Origin: an uncultured Mucilaginibacter sp.
Lineage (GTDB): Bacteria > Bacteroidota > Bacteroidia > Sphingobacteriales > Sphingobacteriaceae
DNA length: 16,985 nucleotides
Assembly (NCBI RefSeq): GCF_946481715.1
Contig: NZ_CAMLOV010000126.1
Span: 1-16,985, forward strand
Reading direction: 5' to 3'
In this document: piece by piece, positions 875 to 13,113 of the stretch
How positions within the stretch are numbered: the first letter of the stretch is position 1
Layout of the letters: each line of letters starts with the position of its first letter
Notes under the pieces: generated by a model
Told to the model about the DNA's origin: nothing
The model's database searches: none
Seen by the model: only the letters and a program-made list of their open reading frames with translations
Translations under genes and position numbers: made by a program

Positions 875-1636
875 ATGGCATTAACAAATTTGCCTGGTGG
901 TTTTGATTATAACTCAACCAGGAACAAACTTTTACTTACCGAATACGGCCGCAATGTGCAAAACATGGTGAAATACATTGTTGCGCTGCCTACTAAAGAA
1001 GAACGCAACAAATACGCACAGGTGGTGATAGACCTAATGGGCTTTTTGAACCCGCACCTACGCGACGTAGCCGATTTTAAACACAAACTTTGGGATCACC
1101 TACACATCATATCCGATTTTCAGCTGGATGTTGATTCCCCCTACCCAAAACCAAGCCCGGAAGCTATCCACTTAAAACCCGAGCCGCTTAAATACCCGCA
1201 CCAGCGTATCCGCTACAAGCACTATGGCAAAACTATCGAAATGATGATAGAAAAAGCCAAAAGCATTGAGGAGCCCGAGCGCAAACGCCACATGGTACAA
1301 GCCATTGCCAACTTCATGAAAATGGCATACGTGCAGTGGAACAAAGATTCGGTTGCTGATGACCTGATCATATCCGACCTGCTGCACCTATCTGGCGGCG
1401 AACTGAAACTGGAAGAGAACGTAAACCTTAACCGTGTTGAGTTCCGCACCAACCCTTACAACAACAATAACAACAACCAAAGCAATAATAACAACAGGGG
1501 CGGCCGCACCAACAATAACCAAAATAACCGCAATAACGGCGGCGGTGGTGGCCGTACAAACAATAACAACAACCAGCGCAATAACAACAATAACCAAAAC
1601 CGTAACCGTAACACCGGCGGCGCTAAGAAATACTAA
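875..1636 (+). CDS. DUF4290 domain-containing protein with Asn/Gly/Arg-rich C-terminal tail
   Basis: The 253-residue protein has a folded part at about residues 1-190 that matches the Bacteroidota-specific DUF4290 family as I recall it (YNSTRNKL, EYGRNVQNMV, LNPHLRD, FKHKLWDHL). It has no signal peptide or membrane segment, so it is probably cytoplasmic. Function is unknown. From about residue 193 to the end it becomes low complexity: runs of Asn with Gln, broken by Gly/Arg patches (NRGGRT, GGGGGRT), ending TGGAKKY. Such basic, RGG-like tails are often RNA-binding or condensate-forming, but that is inference. The gene lies just upstream of murA, an arrangement I recall from other Bacteroidota. 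It starts at ATG 875 behind a good promoter and is followed by a hairpin terminator, so it may be monocistronic. Confidence 0.9.
   Translation: MALTNLPGGFDYNSTRNKLLLTEYGRNVQNMVKYIVALPTKEERNKYAQVVIDLMGFLNPHLRDVADFKHKLWDHLHIISDFQLDVDSPYPKPSPEAIHLKPEPLKYPHQRIRYKHYGKTIEMMIEKAKSIEEPERKRHMVQAIANFMKMAYVQWNKDSVADDLIISDLLHLSGGELKLEENVNLNRVEFRTNPYNNNNNNQSNNNNRGGRTNNNQNNRNNGGGGGRTNNNNNQRNNNNNQNRNRNTGGAKKY
1448..1633 (+). repeat. Low-complexity Asn codon tract (AAC/AAT) in the DUF4290 tail
   Basis: Within the gene, AAC and AAT codons dominate, interrupted by GGC/GGT and CGC/CGT. The AAC/AAT mixture is irregular, so this is a degenerate protein-level repeat, not a perfect microsatellite. The tract could still vary in length between strains. 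Confidence 0.8.
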
Positions 1637-5304: not shown

Positions 5305-5679
5305 TCACTTCCCGTGCTCCCAATATATTACCTCGCTCGTTTTCCCGTAGAATATAATGATGAACACGCCACCCAACGAGTATGGTGGCAGGTAACCGTA
5401 TACTATCCAATAGCCATCGGCATAGCCTACGGTGTATGGCCTCTCCTCTCTGACTTCCTCCTTGCCAAATATTGGGAATAAGATCTCTTCGGCAGCAACG
5501 GCTGCGCTGGCCTCATCAGTTATGCGGGTTTTCGCAAATACCCTTTCCTTCGGCGCGTAGCGTTTACGGTAATACTTTATGGCCTCTCTCGATTTCACGG
5601 TCGAAAGATGCATAGTTTGCCAGGTGTTATCGCATCCGGCCAATAAAAACAAACAGGCGATAAGGAGGATTTTTTTCAC
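5305..5679 (-). CDS. YbbC/YhhH-type lipoprotein, NTF2-fold immunity-like
   Basis: With the GTG at 5679-5677 as start, the product is 124 residues and opens with a textbook lipoprotein signal: KK, a hydrophobic stretch, and lipobox LAGC with the lipidated Cys at residue 16. A TTG 27 bases upstream (5706) would only add a poorer N-terminus, and it lies inside the preceding terminator. The mature part matches the YbbC/YhhH / NTF2-fold immunity family as I recall it: TDEASAAVAAEEILFPIFGKE, RPY, GYWIVYGYLPP, GGVF, and the terminal HGK. Family members are linked to polymorphic-toxin immunity in some genomes, but no toxin gene is visible nearby, so the role is unknown. It probably sits in the outer or inner membrane facing the periplasm. 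TAGGTTTG at 5686-5679, with TTG 17 bases before, fits the promoter consensus but overlaps the start codon. Confidence 0.75.
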   Translation of the reverse strand: MKKILLIACLFLLAGCDNTWQTMHLSTVKSREAIKYYRKRYAPKERVFAKTRITDEASAAVAAEEILFPIFGKEEVREERPYTVGYADGYWIVYGYLPPYSLGGVFIIIFYGKTSEVIYWEHGK

Positions 5680-5685
5680 AAACCT

Positions 5686-5720
5686 AAAATAAAAAAAGAG
5701 GCGCAAAATTTTACGCCTCT
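5686..5720 (-). terminator. Intrinsic terminator of the cystathionine beta-synthase gene
   Basis: Read on the reverse strand: a 7-bp stem AGAGGCG/CGCCTCT (5720-5714 and 5703-5697) with a 10-nt loop that is itself partly self-complementary, followed by a run of T at 5697-5691 and more T beyond an A. It lies 34 bases after the stop at 5755 and directly before the start of the downstream lipoprotein gene. Confidence 0.85.
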
Positions 5721-7281: not shown

Positions 7282-10200
7282 ATGCCGCAATTATTTACCA
7301 GGACGCTTACCATCTTAACATTATTAATTGCTTGCAGCAATGCATTTGCGCAACGGCCCTTAACAACAAGCAGGCAAAGCAGCTACTATACTTATATTTA
7401 TAAGCTGAGCGCACCCGATGTGCTGGCGTTTTACAAAGCGCCCCAAAAGCCCTTCGACGATAAACTCTTCCGCAACCCGGTGGATTCTTTCTTGACCGAC
7501 GGGTATTGGGAAAACACGCTGCCGGCCGGCAACTACGTTAAAGTACATGCCGATGAGAACAAGCTGCAATACGCGCTCATCGAAAACCATTCGGCCTTTT
7601 TAAAACTTTTTACCGGTAAATACGAACACCGCTTTGCTTTAACGGATAAACAAGGCGCATATATAACCAATGCCATGGTGCTGCTGAATGGTAAAAAAGT
7701 AGCATACGATGCCAATAGCAATACCTGGCATTTTAAAGCCGCCAAAGCCGCCCGCACTTTACAGGTAGAATATGCCGGGGTAAGCAACTTTTACCAGCTT
7801 AGCCCGGCCGATTATTATAACTATGAAAAAGGCTGGTGGGCAAAGTTGTGGGCATCTGTAAAAAATATTTTTAAACACAAAAACAAATACCACTACAAGC
7901 CCAGCCCCTACACCGGCTTTTTAGCGTTTAACAAGCCTATTTACAAACCCGGCGATACCGTAAAATTTAAGGCCTTTATACTAAACGCAAAGAGCAAAAA
8001 GCCTATTACGAACAAAACACTGCTGGTAAAGCTGGTTACCGACGACGGTAACAAAAAATTGGGTACGGTGAGCAGCTACCGCGATGGCGGTTTCGAGTAC
8101 AGTTTTGTATTGGCAGACAGCCTGGGCCTCGACCTGGACGAAACCCATAAAATTTTACTTACCGATCCGGCAAAAGAACTAAAGATAAAAAGCGGCGAAG
8201 AGGATCACGACGGCGACAATGAAGAAGAAAACAATAACGATGTTATTTACTCGGGCAGCTTTCAATATGAAGAGTATGAATTAAAATCGATCCGTTTTAC
8301 GATGCGGGCCGATAAAAAAGAACATTGGCCGGGCAACCCGCAGTTGGTTTACTTAAAAGCAACCGATGAGAACGACTTGCCGGTGGCCGATGGGCGGGTA
8401 GTTTTAAACCTTATAACAACAAACGTAAACCAGCACACAGCCAACCACCAGTTTGTGCCGGATACGCTTTGGACGCATCAACTTGCGTTGGATGCCGTTG
8501 GCGAAACAAAGATCACCATACCCGACTCTGTATTTCCGAAGGCAGATGTTGGGTACAATATAAATGCGCAATTTTTAAACTCCAATAACGAGCAGCAGAA
8601 CACAACGGCGGAGAGCGAATTTAAATACCAGCGGTTCCACACGATAACCGATGTAGTTGACGATTCGTTAAAAATAAGCCACCAGGAATATGGCAAACCA
8701 GTTGCTGCAATGGGTATTGTGAGTACTTTAAACGCCGATGGCGATACGCTTACCCGGCAAAAAATTGCCCTGCCCGGCTTTGTGTTGATCAACCCGAACG
8801 CCAGCGAATACAATATCGAAACCGACAGTACAGATACCTATGTGGACATGAAAGATTTTGAAGGCAATATCTCCCTATCTACTGAACGCACCGCCGATTC
8901 GGTATTTATAAACGTGGCTAACCCGCGCAAGCTGCACTTCTTTTATTCGGTTTTCGCCGGCGGCAGGTTAATAGGCCAGGGGCAGGCCGACAAGCTTTTT
9001 TACCGCAAAGCCTGCAAACCGGGTACACCTTTTGCCATGGTAGTAAATTATGTATGGGCAGGTGTAGTTAAAACAGCCAACGTGTTCCCCAGTTACAGGC
9101 CCGACCTGTTAACCATAGCCGTAAAGCAACCGGTATCGGTTTACCCTGGCCAAAAAATACAAACCCTTGTAGTGGTTACTGATGCTTCCGGCAAGCCTCT
9201 TCCCAATACCGATGTTACCGCATGGGCTATCACCAAAAAATTCAGTTACAGCATGCCCAATATACCCTTCCTGGGCAAACAGGGCAGGTACATTAAACCA
9301 AAAAATGAGTTTAAACTGGGTACTCCCAACCTGCAAGGGCAATTAAAATTGGGCTGGCAACGCTGGAGCCGCGAAATTGGGCTGGATAGCATTGCCTACT
9401 ACCGGTTTACGCACCCCCAAAACAATATCTACCGCATAGCAGAACCGGGCATTGATACCGTAACGCAAATAGCCCCCTTTGTAGTAAACAACGGCGACAT
9501 AGTCCCGGTACATATCCTCTACATCGATCGGCTGCCGGTTTATTTTAGCCAGGCACAGCAATTGCAGCCATACAGCTTTAAGGTATCTCCCGGCTACCAT
9601 TCGCTGATGCTGCGTACCGCCGGGCAAATTATAGAAGTGGATAGCGTTATGGTAGAGCGCAATAAAAAACTCATCCTCGGCATAAACGCCAATACCTATG
9701 CCACGCAAAAAGTACCGGATACCTTATCCACCTCCGAGGCCAATAACATCAATAAGTTCCTGGTAAGCGTTATAAACAATTTTGATGGGCGGCGGGCGAT
9801 GATCGCACAAACCGACAGGATCTTCTTTTTAAACCCTGCCGCTAAATCCGGCAGCGCCGTGCTTACCGGCCCGCTTGCACCAAATTACACGATATACGAC
9901 CATCTGGGCGACAAAGCTCAAGCTTTTTTAGCGGAGCCGAACTATAATTACCTTTTTGAGCCGGGGCTTATCCGCCAAAAAAGCATACCCGCAAGCTATC
10001 CATTTTCGCGTTGGCTGCGCAACATCAGCGGCACAACCAATTACAAGCAATATGTATTAACCAACAACGCCGCAGACAGCCTATGGCAGGATTACCTGGA
10101 TAAACGCGCCAACACCACCCAATTATTTACCAATTTCCCCATAAACGGCCGAAACCTTGGGCGGCTAAAAATAGACCGCCTGCCAACAGCGAACGAAAAA

Positions 10201-13113
10201 CTGGCATTTATTAAAAATGTTATTCTTTACCGTAATGATGACCCCGATTATATTAGGGTTTACCCAGGTAATACCACCGACCTGGGCCTACTTGCGCAGG
10301 GAAAATACAGATTGTTCTTTTTGCTGCAGGGCGACCGGTACGACATAAAAGATAACATAGAGATTAAAATGCATGGTTTGAATTATTACAGGTTCGGTAT
10401 TTCGCCCACACACGGCAGGGATTCGGTAAGTATTAAAATTGCGCGGGTAATTAACAACCGCAAGAACGAGCCATACCGCAATGCGGATAACGAAATTGAA
10501 AACGATGCACTGAAATTAAAAGAGGCATTTAACCAAAAATATTTCAGCATGGGCAACTTTAGTCAAACCCTAAGCGGTAAAATCATCGGCAGCGACGATA
10601 AACAGCCGCTTATTGGCGTTATGGTGAAAATTAAAGGCACAACGGCCGGCGCCATGACAGATATTAACGGCGAATTTAGGCTGCAGGTTCCGCGGAAGGG
10701 GAAAATTATAGTATCGTACCTTGGCTACCTCACGCAAGAAGTGGATTACGTGCCGGGCACAAACATCACCCTTAAATTAACATCTTTAAGTAACCAGTTG
10801 CAGGAGGTTGTTGTAATTGGTTACGGTTCCGTAAGGAGAAAAGATTTAACCGGTGCGGTGAGCTCGGTTTCGTTCGACCAACTTTTGGAAGGGCGGGTTG
10901 CGGGCCTTGTAGTAACCCAGGGCACGCCAGGTGGGGGCATTAACATCCAGATAAGAGGAGTCTCATCAATAGGTGCCAACGCGCCTTTATATGTTGTGGA
11001 TGGCGAAATAGTGGCCAACCTGAACGGGCTAAACCCCGGTATGATAGGCGAGATAAGCGTATTAAAAGACGCCGCCGCCACGGCGATATACGGCGCGAGA
11101 GGTGCTAACGGCGTAATAATTATTTCTACCAAGCCCAAAGCAAACGCAGCAGTTGCCTCTGCTGATGCACCAAAGGGCGGCGACCAAACCCTCCGCAAAA
11201 ACTTCTCTGATTACGCCTACTGGCAACCCAAACTCATAACCGACGAAAACGGCATAGCAAGTTTCACCACTGTTTTCCCGGATGATATTACCAACTGGCG
11301 CACCTTTGTGGTGGGCATAAACGGGCAGCGGCAAAGCGGCTTTGTAGAAAAGCAGATAAAATCCTTTAAACCCCTAAGTGCCAACTTTATTGCGCCGCAA
11401 TTTGCGGTGGAGGGCGACGAGATGAATTTGATAGGCAAGGTGATGAACTATAACTCCACCCCGGTTAGTGTTAACCGCACTTTTAGTTATAACGGCAAGG
11501 TGCTAACACAAGGCGACTTACAGGTAAGCAATGCTAAAATAGATACGCTGAACATTACCGCCTCGGCTACCGACAGCCTGGAGTTTGAGTACAGCATTAA
11601 GCGCGATAACGGCTATTTTGATGGCGAGCGGCGCAAAATACCTGTGGTAAAACAAGGCGTACAGGAAACCAAAGGCATTTTTGAAGCCATGGACCGGGAT
11701 ACCACCATCAGCCTTAAATTCGACCCGGCAATGGGGCCGGTAACTTTTAGGGCCGAAGCCTCTGCCCTGCCCGCCCTTGCCGAAGAAGCTAAACATCTGC
11801 GCGAATACAAATACCTGTGCAACGAGCAATTAGCCTCAAAATTAAAAGGGTTGTTAGCCGAGAAACGCATTAAAACCTTTTTGAGCGAGCCTTTTAAATA
11901 CGAGCGGAATATTTTGGACGTGATAAAAAAACTACAGGATAACCGCAAACCATCAGGCACCTGGGGCTGGTGGAACAACACCGATGAGGAATTATGGATA
12001 AGCCTGCATGCGGTAGAAGCGCTTACCGCAGCGCAAAACATGGGCTATACCGTGCAAATGGATAAACAAAAACTGACCGATTACCTGGTATATCAAATGG
12101 AAAGCTACCGCGGCGAAGACAAATTAACCTGCCTGCAACTGCTAAACAAATTAAGCGCCAAGGTTGATTACGCCAAATACTTCGGGGTGATAGAGAAAGA
12201 GTACAAAGCGCAAAAAGAAGTGACTAATTATAACCACTTCCGCTTGATGCTATTAAAACAGGAGACAGGGCTTATTGTAAAAACCGACAGCCTGATCAAT
12301 ACCGCACACAAAACCATGTTCGGTAACAGGTATTGGGGCGAGGAAAACTACCGCTTCTTTGATAATTCGGTACAGCTAAGTATTATTGCTTATCAAATTA
12401 TCCGGGCCGAAGGCAAGCACCCCGAACTGCTTACCAAGATACGCGGTTACTTGTTAGAGCAGCGTAAACAGGGCCAATGGCGAAACACTTACGAATCTGC
12501 CCTGGTACTGGAAACCATCCTGCCCGATCTGCTGCAAAGCGGCAAGGCTTTAAAACCGGCGGTATTAACTATAAAAGGCGCAGCAACCGAAACGGTTACA
12601 GCTTTCCCATATACCACCACCCTAAAAGAGAACGCCATCAGCATCAGCAAAATAGGCAGCCTGCCCGTTTACATTACCGGCTACCAACAGTTTTGGAACG
12701 GCAAACCCGAAAAGGTAAGCAAGGATTTTGCAGTGGATACCTGGTTCGAGAAAAAGGGCGATAAACTTACAAAACTAAAAGGCGGCGAGGCGGTAGAGCT
12801 TAAAGCCGAAGTCACTGTAAAAGGCGATGCCGAGTTTGTGATGGTGGAGATACCCATCCCTGCCGGCTGCTCGTACGAAAGCAAAGACCAGCAATGGGCC
12901 AATAACGAGGTACATCGCGAGTTCTTCAAAGAAAAGGTGAGCATATTTTGCCGCAAACTTAAACAAGGCACCTACACTTTTACCGTAAACCTGATGCCAC
13001 GCTACAGCGGCAAATACAACCTAAACCCGGCCAAAGCCGAGCAAATGTATTTCCCGGTGTTTTATGGGAGAGAAGGGATGAAGTCTGTTGTCATTGGTTC
13101 CTTGGTTCAGTAG
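7282..13113 (+). CDS. Alpha-2-macroglobulin-like thioester protein with inserted SusC/RagA-type carboxypeptidase-regulatory and TonB plug domains
   Basis: The 1943-residue exported protein has a signal region at residues 1-23: LIAC at 15-18 would fit lipidation, and AFA before Q24 would fit signal peptidase I. The macroglobulin order is visible. An MG2-like domain (about 209-305) has YKPGDTVKFKAF. A bait-region-domain-like part (about 610-710) has VYPGQKIQTLVVV. The A2M domain (about 1307-1400) has YWQPKLITDENG and FPDDITNWRTFVVG. A thioester helical domain (about 1500-1770) has CNEQ at 1513-1516, then C-terminal MG domains follow. Between MG6-like sequence and the A2M domain sits a foreign module. 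A carboxypeptidase-D-regulatory fold lies at about 1097-1170. A SusC-type plug follows at about 1172-1286 (EVVVIGYGSVRRKDLTG, IQIRGVSSIG, LYVVDG, VLKDAAATAIYGARGANGV), with no beta-barrel after it. Macroglobulins trap proteases at the cell surface or periplasm. What the plug does here is unknown. The single reading frame is unbroken, and its last codons are made of an intergenic repeat. Confidence 0.92.
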   Translation: MPQLFTRTLTILTLLIACSNAFAQRPLTTSRQSSYYTYIYKLSAPDVLAFYKAPQKPFDDKLFRNPVDSFLTDGYWENTLPAGNYVKVHADENKLQYALIENHSAFLKLFTGKYEHRFALTDKQGAYITNAMVLLNGKKVAYDANSNTWHFKAAKAARTLQVEYAGVSNFYQLSPADYYNYEKGWWAKLWASVKNIFKHKNKYHYKPSPYTGFLAFNKPIYKPGDTVKFKAFILNAKSKKPITNKTLLVKLVTDDGNKKLGTVSSYRDGGFEYSFVLADSLGLDLDETHKILLTDPAKELKIKSGEEDHDGDNEEENNNDVIYSGSFQYEEYELKSIRFTMRADKKEHWPGNPQLVYLKATDENDLPVADGRVVLNLITTNVNQHTANHQFVPDTLWTHQLALDAVGETKITIPDSVFPKADVGYNINAQFLNSNNEQQNTTAESEFKYQRFHTITDVVDDSLKISHQEYGKPVAAMGIVSTLNADGDTLTRQKIALPGFVLINPNASEYNIETDSTDTYVDMKDFEGNISLSTERTADSVFINVANPRKLHFFYSVFAGGRLIGQGQADKLFYRKACKPGTPFAMVVNYVWAGVVKTANVFPSYRPDLLTIAVKQPVSVYPGQKIQTLVVVTDASGKPLPNTDVTAWAITKKFSYSMPNIPFLGKQGRYIKPKNEFKLGTPNLQGQLKLGWQRWSREIGLDSIAYYRFTHPQNNIYRIAEPGIDTVTQIAPFVVNNGDIVPVHILYIDRLPVYFSQAQQLQPYSFKVSPGYHSLMLRTAGQIIEVDSVMVERNKKLILGINANTYATQKVPDTLSTSEANNINKFLVSVINNFDGRRAMIAQTDRIFFLNPAAKSGSAVLTGPLAPNYTIYDHLGDKAQAFLAEPNYNYLFEPGLIRQKSIPASYPFSRWLRNISGTTNYKQYVLTNNAADSLWQDYLDKRANTTQLFTNFPINGRNLGRLKIDRLPTANEKLAFIKNVILYRNDDPDYIRVYPGNTTDLGLLAQGKYRLFFLLQGDRYDIKDNIEIKMHGLNYYRFGISPTHGRDSVSIKIARVINNRKNEPYRNADNEIENDALKLKEAFNQKYFSMGNFSQTLSGKIIGSDDKQPLIGVMVKIKGTTAGAMTDINGEFRLQVPRKGKIIVSYLGYLTQEVDYVPGTNITLKLTSLSNQLQEVVVIGYGSVRRKDLTGAVSSVSFDQLLEGRVAGLVVTQGTPGGGINIQIRGVSSIGANAPLYVVDGEIVANLNGLNPGMIGEISVLKDAAATAIYGARGANGVIIISTKPKANAAVASADAPKGGDQTLRKNFSDYAYWQPKLITDENGIASFTTVFPDDITNWRTFVVGINGQRQSGFVEKQIKSFKPLSANFIAPQFAVEGDEMNLIGKVMNYNSTPVSVNRTFSYNGKVLTQGDLQVSNAKIDTLNITASATDSLEFEYSIKRDNGYFDGERRKIPVVKQGVQETKGIFEAMDRDTTISLKFDPAMGPVTFRAEASALPALAEEAKHLREYKYLCNEQLASKLKGLLAEKRIKTFLSEPFKYERNILDVIKKLQDNRKPSGTWGWWNNTDEELWISLHAVEALTAAQNMGYTVQMDKQKLTDYLVYQMESYRGEDKLTCLQLLNKLSAKVDYAKYFGVIEKEYKAQKEVTNYNHFRLMLLKQETGLIVKTDSLINTAHKTMFGNRYWGEENYRFFDNSVQLSIIAYQIIRAEGKHPELLTKIRGYLLEQRKQGQWRNTYESALVLETILPDLLQSGKALKPAVLTIKGAATETVTAFPYTTTLKENAISISKIGSLPVYITGYQQFWNGKPEKVSKDFAVDTWFEKKGDKLTKLKGGEAVELKAEVTVKGDAEFVMVEIPIPAGCSYESKDQQWANNEVHREFFKEKVSIFCRKLKQGTYTFTVNLMPRYSGKYNLNPAKAEQMYFPVFYGREGMKSVVIGSLVQ
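10564..11139 (+). other. SusC/RagA-type regulatory + plug module inside the macroglobulin gene
   Basis: This segment encodes residues about 1095-1286. It starts with a carboxypeptidase-regulatory beta sandwich (LSGKIIGSDDKQPLIGV, TDINGEFRL, IVSYLGY), then a TonB-receptor plug ending VIIISTKPK. In SusC proteins this pair is followed by a 22-strand barrel. Here an Ala-rich linker leads straight into the A2M domain. The plug looks shorter than usual between SSVSFDQ and LLEGRVAGL, where SusC proteins have about ten more residues. Confidence 0.85.

Follow-up and report, generated by a model that had tools for sequence, protein, structure and literature searches.

Domain architecture of the macroglobulin

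We analysed a stretch of 16,985 nucleotides from an uncultured Mucilaginibacter sp. (contig NZ_CAMLOV010000126.1 of assembly GCF_946481715.1; hereafter the window), in which one open reading frame (ORF) encodes an alpha-2-macroglobulin (A2M) that carries part of a SusC-type transporter. The nearest named relatives of this protein are from Mucilaginibacter pankratovii (82%) and M. psychrotolerans (78%). Its features are listed below, where ETAFF denotes one of the macroglobulin classes, which we distinguished by the motif with which the A2M part begins; the window protein itself belongs to the class SDYAYW.

7282..13113, +: thioester macroglobulin ORF with integrated regulatory domain, TonB box and plug, 1943 aa (ORF list, Pfam, NCBIfam, homologues)
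7282..7350, +: putative signal peptide, AFA/Q, placed by eye (family pattern, A-x-A-Q site; Cys18 lipobox-like)
7915..8115, +: macroglobulin (MG) domain MG2, residues 212-278 (Pfam, E = 1.9e-8)
9205..10560, +: residues 642-1093, unaligned to the ETAFF class (profile alignment stops at 641 and resumes at 1094)
10570..10815, +: CarboxypepD_reg-like domain (CarbopepD_reg_2), residues 1097-1178 (Pfam, E = 7.5e-17)
10798..10824, +: TonB box LQEVVVIGY, residues 1173-1181 (family alignment; counterpart of VDEVVV in Bt1763)
10831..11115, +: TonB-dependent receptor plug, residues 1184-1278 (Pfam Plug, E = 2e-11; NCBIfam; PDB sequence match)
10828..10950, +: part of the plug with most variation, residues 1183-1223 (deletions and swaps among relatives)
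11044..11133, +: SusC/RagA signature, residues 1255-1284 (NCBIfam TIGR04057)
11137..11193, +: linker, residues 1286-1304 (lowest conservation among 16 segments, with a mean frequency of the commonest residue of 0.33)
11215..11475, +: A2M domain PF00207, residues 1312-1398 (Pfam, E = 2.3e-15)
11818..11829, +: thioester motif C1513-N-E-Q1516 (present in 106/106 listed homologues of at least 1900 aa, the window's own included)
12751..13056, +: bMG10 domain, residues 1824-1925 (Pfam, E = 6.1e-16)

The protein has the hallmarks of the A2M family, namely the A2M domain with flanking MG domains and the CXEQ motif, its thioester bond being predicted from sequence. The transporter part is equally recognizable. 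A CarboxypepD_reg-like domain is described as the N-terminal extension of SusC proteins in PMC7782687, and the TonB box sits between this domain and the plug, the same arrangement as in SusC. Residues 1094-1287 match the SusC homologue 5t3r among PDB sequences (E = 1.7e-32), and the SusC/RagA model TIGR04056 of NCBIfam matches residues 1096-1285 (E = 5.7e-63). Since this match covers only model positions 2-205 of 981 and stays under the whole-protein cut-off, the barrel is absent; the Pfam scan of the window protein likewise found no outer-membrane barrel family. Judged by its sequence, the protein thus has the regulatory domain, TonB box, plug and signature of SusC/RagA proteins and lacks their outer-membrane barrel. 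A first-pass annotation of the DNA had described a SusC-type regulatory domain and plug before the A2M domain, without a barrel, and Pfam and NCBIfam confirm its coordinates and domain order. Of the flanks it assigned, the A2M domain does follow directly after the plug; the “MG6-like sequence” does not adjoin the insert, since residues 642-1093 are unaligned. These residues are probably the N-terminal part of the insert, with MG-like sequence discernible by eye up to about residue 690.

Sequence places the insert at the bait position

To place the insert, we relied on profile alignments and relatives. The profile of the window family aligns with the A2Ms of another class, FRP, over residues 1287-1940 and with a third of the plain-class A2Ms from residue 1296. 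Therefore, the ordinary A2M half starts right behind the plug. In the alignment with the ETAFF class, the N-terminal block ends at residue 641 and the next block starts at 1094. The window protein itself aligns with human A2M only weakly (residues 1301-1394 with 728-821, whole-sequence E = 1.4e-4, no single stretch significant alone). A relative from a short clade, L123, has a SusC match over residues 642-789; from residue 840 on, it aligns strongly with human A2M from 732 onward (E = 1.3e-25) and also with the C3b alpha' chain, at its start. The human bait region spans residues 690-728, and the junction shared by L123, A2M and C3 is where A2M has its bait and C3 its anaphylatoxin domain. In L057, Pfam gives the order A2M_BRD (1003-1139), regulatory domain (1231-1311), plug (1334-1419) and A2M (1447-1534).

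The bait region domain of human A2M is inserted in MG6 (PMC13069473). The alignments indicate that the insert lies at the MG6 insertion point before PF00207, which is weak for the window protein alone and clear in the profile alignment and the relatives. The earlier proposal that the plug occupies the macroglobulin bait position is thereby supported at the sequence level by human A2M, the profile alignments, L057 and L123. The sequence matching A2M 728/732 and the C3b alpha' chain follows the plug, but neither the human bait region domain nor the C3 anaphylatoxin domain is related to a transporter plug.

Plug pieces recur in three macroglobulin clades

Of 7997 candidates scored in a search with the window protein, 801 were homologues at E <= 1e-3. 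All 120 of those listed, a number that counts the window protein, have both regulatory and A2M domains, and 105/120 have a Pfam plug. The architecture is therefore not unique, as had been suspected. A join of two genes through an assembly artefact or frameshift, one of the conditions under which the first-pass annotation would have failed, is ruled out by the length-conserved homologues in many genomes; the low ratio of nonsynonymous to synonymous substitution rates (dN/dS) in the parts flanking the regulatory domain, box and plug also speaks against it.

Beyond this family, 106 of 247 sampled Bacteroidota genomes had an A2M match. The set used here comprises 145 macroglobulin ORFs (143 loci from the 247-genome search plus L001 and L002) and divides into the classes plain (65), FRP (19), ETAFF (47), SDYAYW (5), short GCFEQ (4) and short GCVEQ (4), with one unassigned. 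These counts exclude L003-L036, whose sequences were cut short and 30 of which re-enter as L150-L179 (L003/L004 are L001/L002); L005 and L006, the second A2Ms of genomes G001 and G002, lie outside all class counts. In a tree of the C-terminal core (FastTree; 107 rows, 11 of them P proteins, that is, homologues designated P; plain class thinned to 16/65; P0033 dropped for missing columns), each class is set apart from the rest by a branch with a local support of 100. The exception is the plain class, which needs two changes, one member (L118) having the label “other”. The tree is unrooted. Gains and losses are not separable by a tree, and we claim no number of independent insertions.

The plug profile matches 18/145 macroglobulins, in 17 genomes: 10 ETAFF, 5 SDYAYW and 3 short GCFEQ proteins. 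CXEQ is present in 16 of these 18, and in 34/47 ETAFF, 5/5 SDYAYW and 4/4 short GCFEQ proteins overall. At least 30 of the 49 genomes with a plug-type class (ETAFF, SDYAYW or short GCFEQ; n = 56 proteins) also carry a plain or FRP macroglobulin.

We found that a TonB-box pattern is likewise concentrated in the inserts of these classes, occurring in 19/47 ETAFF, 5/5 SDYAYW and 2/4 short GCFEQ inserts, as against 0/65 plain and 0/19 FRP inserts (0/84 together). Equal windows of the same ETAFF proteins contain it in 0/47 cases upstream and 0/47 downstream, shuffled ETAFF inserts give a mean of 0.5 and a maximum of 2, and neighbouring ORFs, from which transporter-like ones were removed, show it in 6/667 background windows (Fisher 9e-20). 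Even ETAFF proteins without a plug-profile match carry it in 11/37 cases (2e-11 vs background). A second pattern, GKVAGV, is found in 0/84 plain and FRP inserts; the weaker patterns IRG, VDG and NGVII are less specific, IRG occurring also in 9/19 FRP inserts. Altogether, plug pieces recur at the bait position in three Bacteroidota macroglobulin clades, as complete plugs, halves of plugs or the TonB box alone.

Within the window family, the TonB box is strongly conserved (out of 106: L1173 104, E1175 103, V1176 99, V1177 98, V1178 97, G1180 104, Y1181 101). Many plugs contain internal deletions, residues 1197-1220 being gaps in up to 64/106 relatives. In P0105 and P0107, the alignment shows a different sequence in place of the SusC plug, and neither has a Pfam plug match. 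The piece in P0107 is 54-60% identical to parts of three G001 ORFs of 942-999 aa, and the two of these that were scanned have an OMP_b-brl_3 barrel behind the regulatory domain. As the OMP_b-brl_3 ORFs also have no Pfam Plug match, “plug” here means the part between regulatory domain and barrel. In this sense, genome search and Pfam identify in P0107 the plug of a second transporter type (OMP_b-brl_3), to which P0105 is assigned by alignment alone.

Turnover and probable exchange of the cassette

Within the genus, the regulatory domain, TonB box and plug (the cassette) change faster than the protein around them. Across 47 pairs with a core identity of 0.8-0.9, mean identity was 0.83 in residues 700-1060, 0.75 in the regulatory domain and 0.69 in the plug. 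P0048 and P0049, from the window's genus, share 95% of the core and 94% of residues 700-1060, but 62% of the regulatory domain and 76% of the plug, with switch points near 1088 and 1235 (edges by eye). Between P0048 and P0050, the regulatory domain is 99% and the plug 96% identical. Synonymous divergence (dS) departs from the core in both directions: for L219/L224 it amounts to 0.25 (core), 0.29 (residues 840-1080), 0.89 (regulatory domain) and 0.48 (box to mid-plug), and for L222/L219 the respective values are 0.38, 0.19, 0.11 and 0.10, each estimate for a cassette part resting on 66-86 codons. The cassette thus has a history of its own and was probably exchanged. A search for the donor of the P0049 cassette (E <= 1e-48) gave a single match in each of 26/149 genomes, all in macroglobulin-length frames. 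In L218 and L229, two members of the genus with 93% identity in the A2M part, residues 840-1080 are only 49% identical; larger N-terminal stretches seem to have been exchanged as well.

Insert content also differs among seven ETAFF relatives whose C-terminal cores are 76-89% identical: two have the regulatory domain, box and plug, three only the second plug half, and two the regulatory domain with a box or box-like remnant. For L219/L224, the part from the box to mid-plug has a dN of 0.20 against a dS of 0.48, that is, a dN/dS of about 0.4 vs about 0.04 in the core, or about tenfold.

As a control, we compared true SusC proteins. In the seven closest G001/G002 SusC pairs, in which one gene occurs twice and plug positions are those of the best-scoring profile match, identity was 86-100% from the box to mid-plug, 81-96% in the rest of the plug and 70-92% in the barrel; the 28 SusC loci behind them are the best matches to the window's plug and hence a non-random sample. 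The G001/G002 macroglobulins, in contrast, are 89% identical in the core, 76% in the regulatory domain and only 47% and 57% in the two plug parts. The plug is thus the conserved part in real SusC proteins and the variable part in macroglobulins.

Leader, gene neighbourhood and related proteins

The leader contains LIAC at residues 15-18 followed by AFA/Q, and 90/106 relatives fit a simple pattern resembling signal peptidase I sites. The leader thus looks like the signal peptidase I type, and the NCBIfam scan found no type IX sorting domain; the surface location suggested in the first-pass annotation finds no support in either. Simple patterns indicate a PBP1c-like gene near 43/65 plain and 9/19 FRP macroglobulins (52/84), in the same locus, and near 0/56 plug-type ones, and lipobox-like starts occur in 38/65, 9/19 (47/84) and 5/56, respectively. 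No PBP1c gene is adjacent to the window macroglobulin, unlike in the pbpC-linked lipoprotein kind of A2M.

The neighbours in the window include a cysteine-synthase-like gene with CBS domains, a NUDIX/NrtR regulator, and metabolic and cell-wall genes, and they give no functional hint. Among the nine neighbours scanned there was no barrel gene and no SusD-like gene, so the SusD-type partners envisaged earlier find no support; PADLOC anti-phage models gave 0 families at E <= 0.01. A small protein at 5305-5706 (-) has an NTF2-fold immunity domain (PF15631) and a lipobox-like start, with no toxin family among the nine scanned neighbours beside it, and a DUF4290 protein at 875-1636 (+) has a long tail rich in asparagine and glycine.

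Several related proteins were also observed. The MG2 proteins at L253:2134-4605, L261:318-2819 and L262:875-3472 (frames of 824-866 aa) end just after a plug and an LRSTI.W.P motif. They resemble the window protein in that the plug precedes a similar motif, and differ in having no thioester domain. L250-L252 have a similar layout without a plug-profile match. At L257:1247-1978, a 244-aa frame contains two or three plug-like pieces in tandem and no barrel. At L259:676-2607, the C-terminus of a BlaR1-type M56 peptidase consists of a TonB C-terminal domain and then half a TonB-receptor plug, possibly an intramolecular TonB-plug pair. The orthologue at L263 (genome G289) is split over two frames of 1166 and 770 aa, the change of frame falling inside the regulatory domain; the gene may be broken, the split may stem from a sequencing error, or it may be a switch.

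What the plug may do

Domain order, the position before the A2M half, the thioester motif, the absence of a barrel, the recurrence in three clades, and the turnover and exchange of the cassette were computed directly. On these observations, we propose, with a probability of roughly 0.45, that the protein is a soluble periplasmic thioester macroglobulin in which an insert made of those transporter domains that face the periplasm in TonB-dependent transport acts as the trigger; we infer its periplasmic location, fold, cleavage, trapping and the identity of the attacking proteases. In ECAM, cutting of the bait sets free a segment that pushes the thioester domain out of place (PMC4498604). Here, a protease able to cleave transporter plugs, TonB boxes or the loose linker that follows them would cut the insert as well. 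The cut would release the C-terminal half (A2M, thioester domain and MG10), and the thioester would then become reactive and capture the attacking protease. The plug would thus be an integrated decoy that copies the transporter gate, so that proteases attacking the gate would spring the trap. Some plant immune receptors analogously carry a copy of an effector's target. A trigger that copies the transporter gate would explain the position of the insert, its kept likeness to a plug, the two plug types and the turnover. Of the functions suggested in the first-pass annotation, a protease bait is the best fit to the fast evolution, the swaps and the content that differs between relatives. A wider version, put forward tentatively, is a periplasmic protease surveillance system of Bacteroidota in which the trigger of a covalent trap copies transporters, is renewed by cassette exchange and draws on at least two transporter families as its source.

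Several observations weigh against a trigger of this kind. The window protein's own match to human A2M is weak, and 23/47 ETAFF inserts have neither plug profile nor motif. In addition, 13/47 ETAFF proteins lack CXEQ, including the whole-plug proteins L060 and L061; L060 has SAEQ, with serine for cysteine, while its relatives L064 and L070 have CAEQ. However, the type II macroglobulin MagD traps protease without a thioester (PMC5764988), and the loss in L060 and L061 would therefore weaken the covalent step and not trapping as such. As to turnover, the N-terminal halves of the seven ETAFF relatives also differ (53-58%, one pair 83%), and therefore the insert is not the sole variable part. For L222/L219, the low dS extends to residues 840-1080, so that the swap pattern is not uniform; between the window protein and L210 the drop is small (plug parts 79% and 88%, core 91%); and no SusC donor of the swapped cassette was found among the 21 candidates scored per genome. 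In the seven SusC pairs, the regulatory domain (62-87%) is below the barrel there too. Furthermore, dN/dS does not exceed 1, and relaxed constraint explains the variable part as well as an arms race does. Finally, the TonB box hardly varies within the Sphingobacteriaceae family; a simple bait would have no need of such constancy, and a bait or decoy does not alone explain it.

TonB docking does explain it, and this is the main rival, which we regard as possible but on the unlikely side. Box and plug would bind the TonB C-terminal domain in the periplasm, and the ExbBD-TonB motor would hold the macroglobulin near transporters importing foreign proteins, or open it mechanically there. In line with docking, the near-invariant box (E1175 103/106, G1180 104/106) stands beside a hypervariable stretch, box patterns are kept in 11/37 ETAFF proteins without a plug-profile match, and the M56 peptidase of G001 (L259) joins TonB_C to half a plug. 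In the SusC protein Bt1763, deletion of VDEVVV or its replacement by alanine leads to levan growth defects similar to those of a SusD deletion (PMC7782687), which is likewise in line with docking. Docking does not, however, explain the relatives without a box: 28/47 ETAFF inserts have no box pattern, and L064, L068 and L070, which have lost box and regulatory domain, retain half a plug.

It is rather improbable, in our judgement, that the plug is a tolerated passenger without a special role, that is, that pieces of the numerous susC genes recombine into the macroglobulin's one insertion-tolerant loop and decay there. The regulatory domain together with the plug has 57 matches in G001 and 89 in G002, where pieces of one gene may count apart. 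Plug presence in ETAFF is patchy (24/47 by profile or motif, with at least 12 changes on the tree), the pieces in L053 and L065 stand in an order foreign to real plugs, and the dN/dS of about 0.4 fits a passenger as well. Decay and patchiness are thereby explained, but retention across the whole family is not: all 120 listed members have the regulatory domain and 105 a Pfam plug, and the TonB-box residues are kept in 97-104/106. Moreover, plugs occur in three clades, while the box and GKVAGV patterns are found in none of the 84 plain and FRP inserts. Very improbable, finally, is barrel repair or quality control, in which the plug would dock in trans into SusC barrels that lack their own plug or in which it has been cut or extracted: complementation of a barrel by a separate plug is reported for E. 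coli FhuA and the signature residues are kept here, but half plugs and plugs with internal deletions (1197-1220) would not seal a barrel, and none of the nine scanned neighbours is a barrel gene.

Relation to known systems and significance

The window protein shares MG domains, the A2M domain, CXEQ and bMG10 with type I bacterial A2Ms (E. coli YfhM/ECAM, Salmonella SaA2M). In these the bait is a largely disordered region (PMC4498604), and bacterial macroglobulins are portrayed as broad protease traps with a disordered bait in PMC4498604 and PMC5764988. The plug-type classes differ from the plain and FRP A2Ms of Bacteroidota, often found with a PBP1c-like gene and a lipobox-like start, in the counts given above for locus and leader. 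With SusC/RagA transporters the window protein has in common the order of regulatory domain, TonB box, plug and signature, and it differs from them in having no barrel. The parts are thus known, and the combination carries only general database names (alpha-2-macroglobulin, carboxypeptidase-like, SusC/RagA receptor); in the literature outside subscription papers, we found no paper joining a macroglobulin and a plug. Because these proteins have no barrel, the label “SusC/RagA outer-membrane receptor” given to them by several databases is wrong.

As judged from the alignments, the bait position of these macroglobulins is occupied, in three clades and with fast turnover, by a copy of the domain with which the main nutrient gate of the phylum faces the periplasm. 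If the plug serves docking, TonB would gain a partner that is not a transporter. If it is instead the trigger that we propose, a bacterial protein trap would contain an integrated decoy, whose presence would hint at unknown proteases directed against TonB-dependent transporters.

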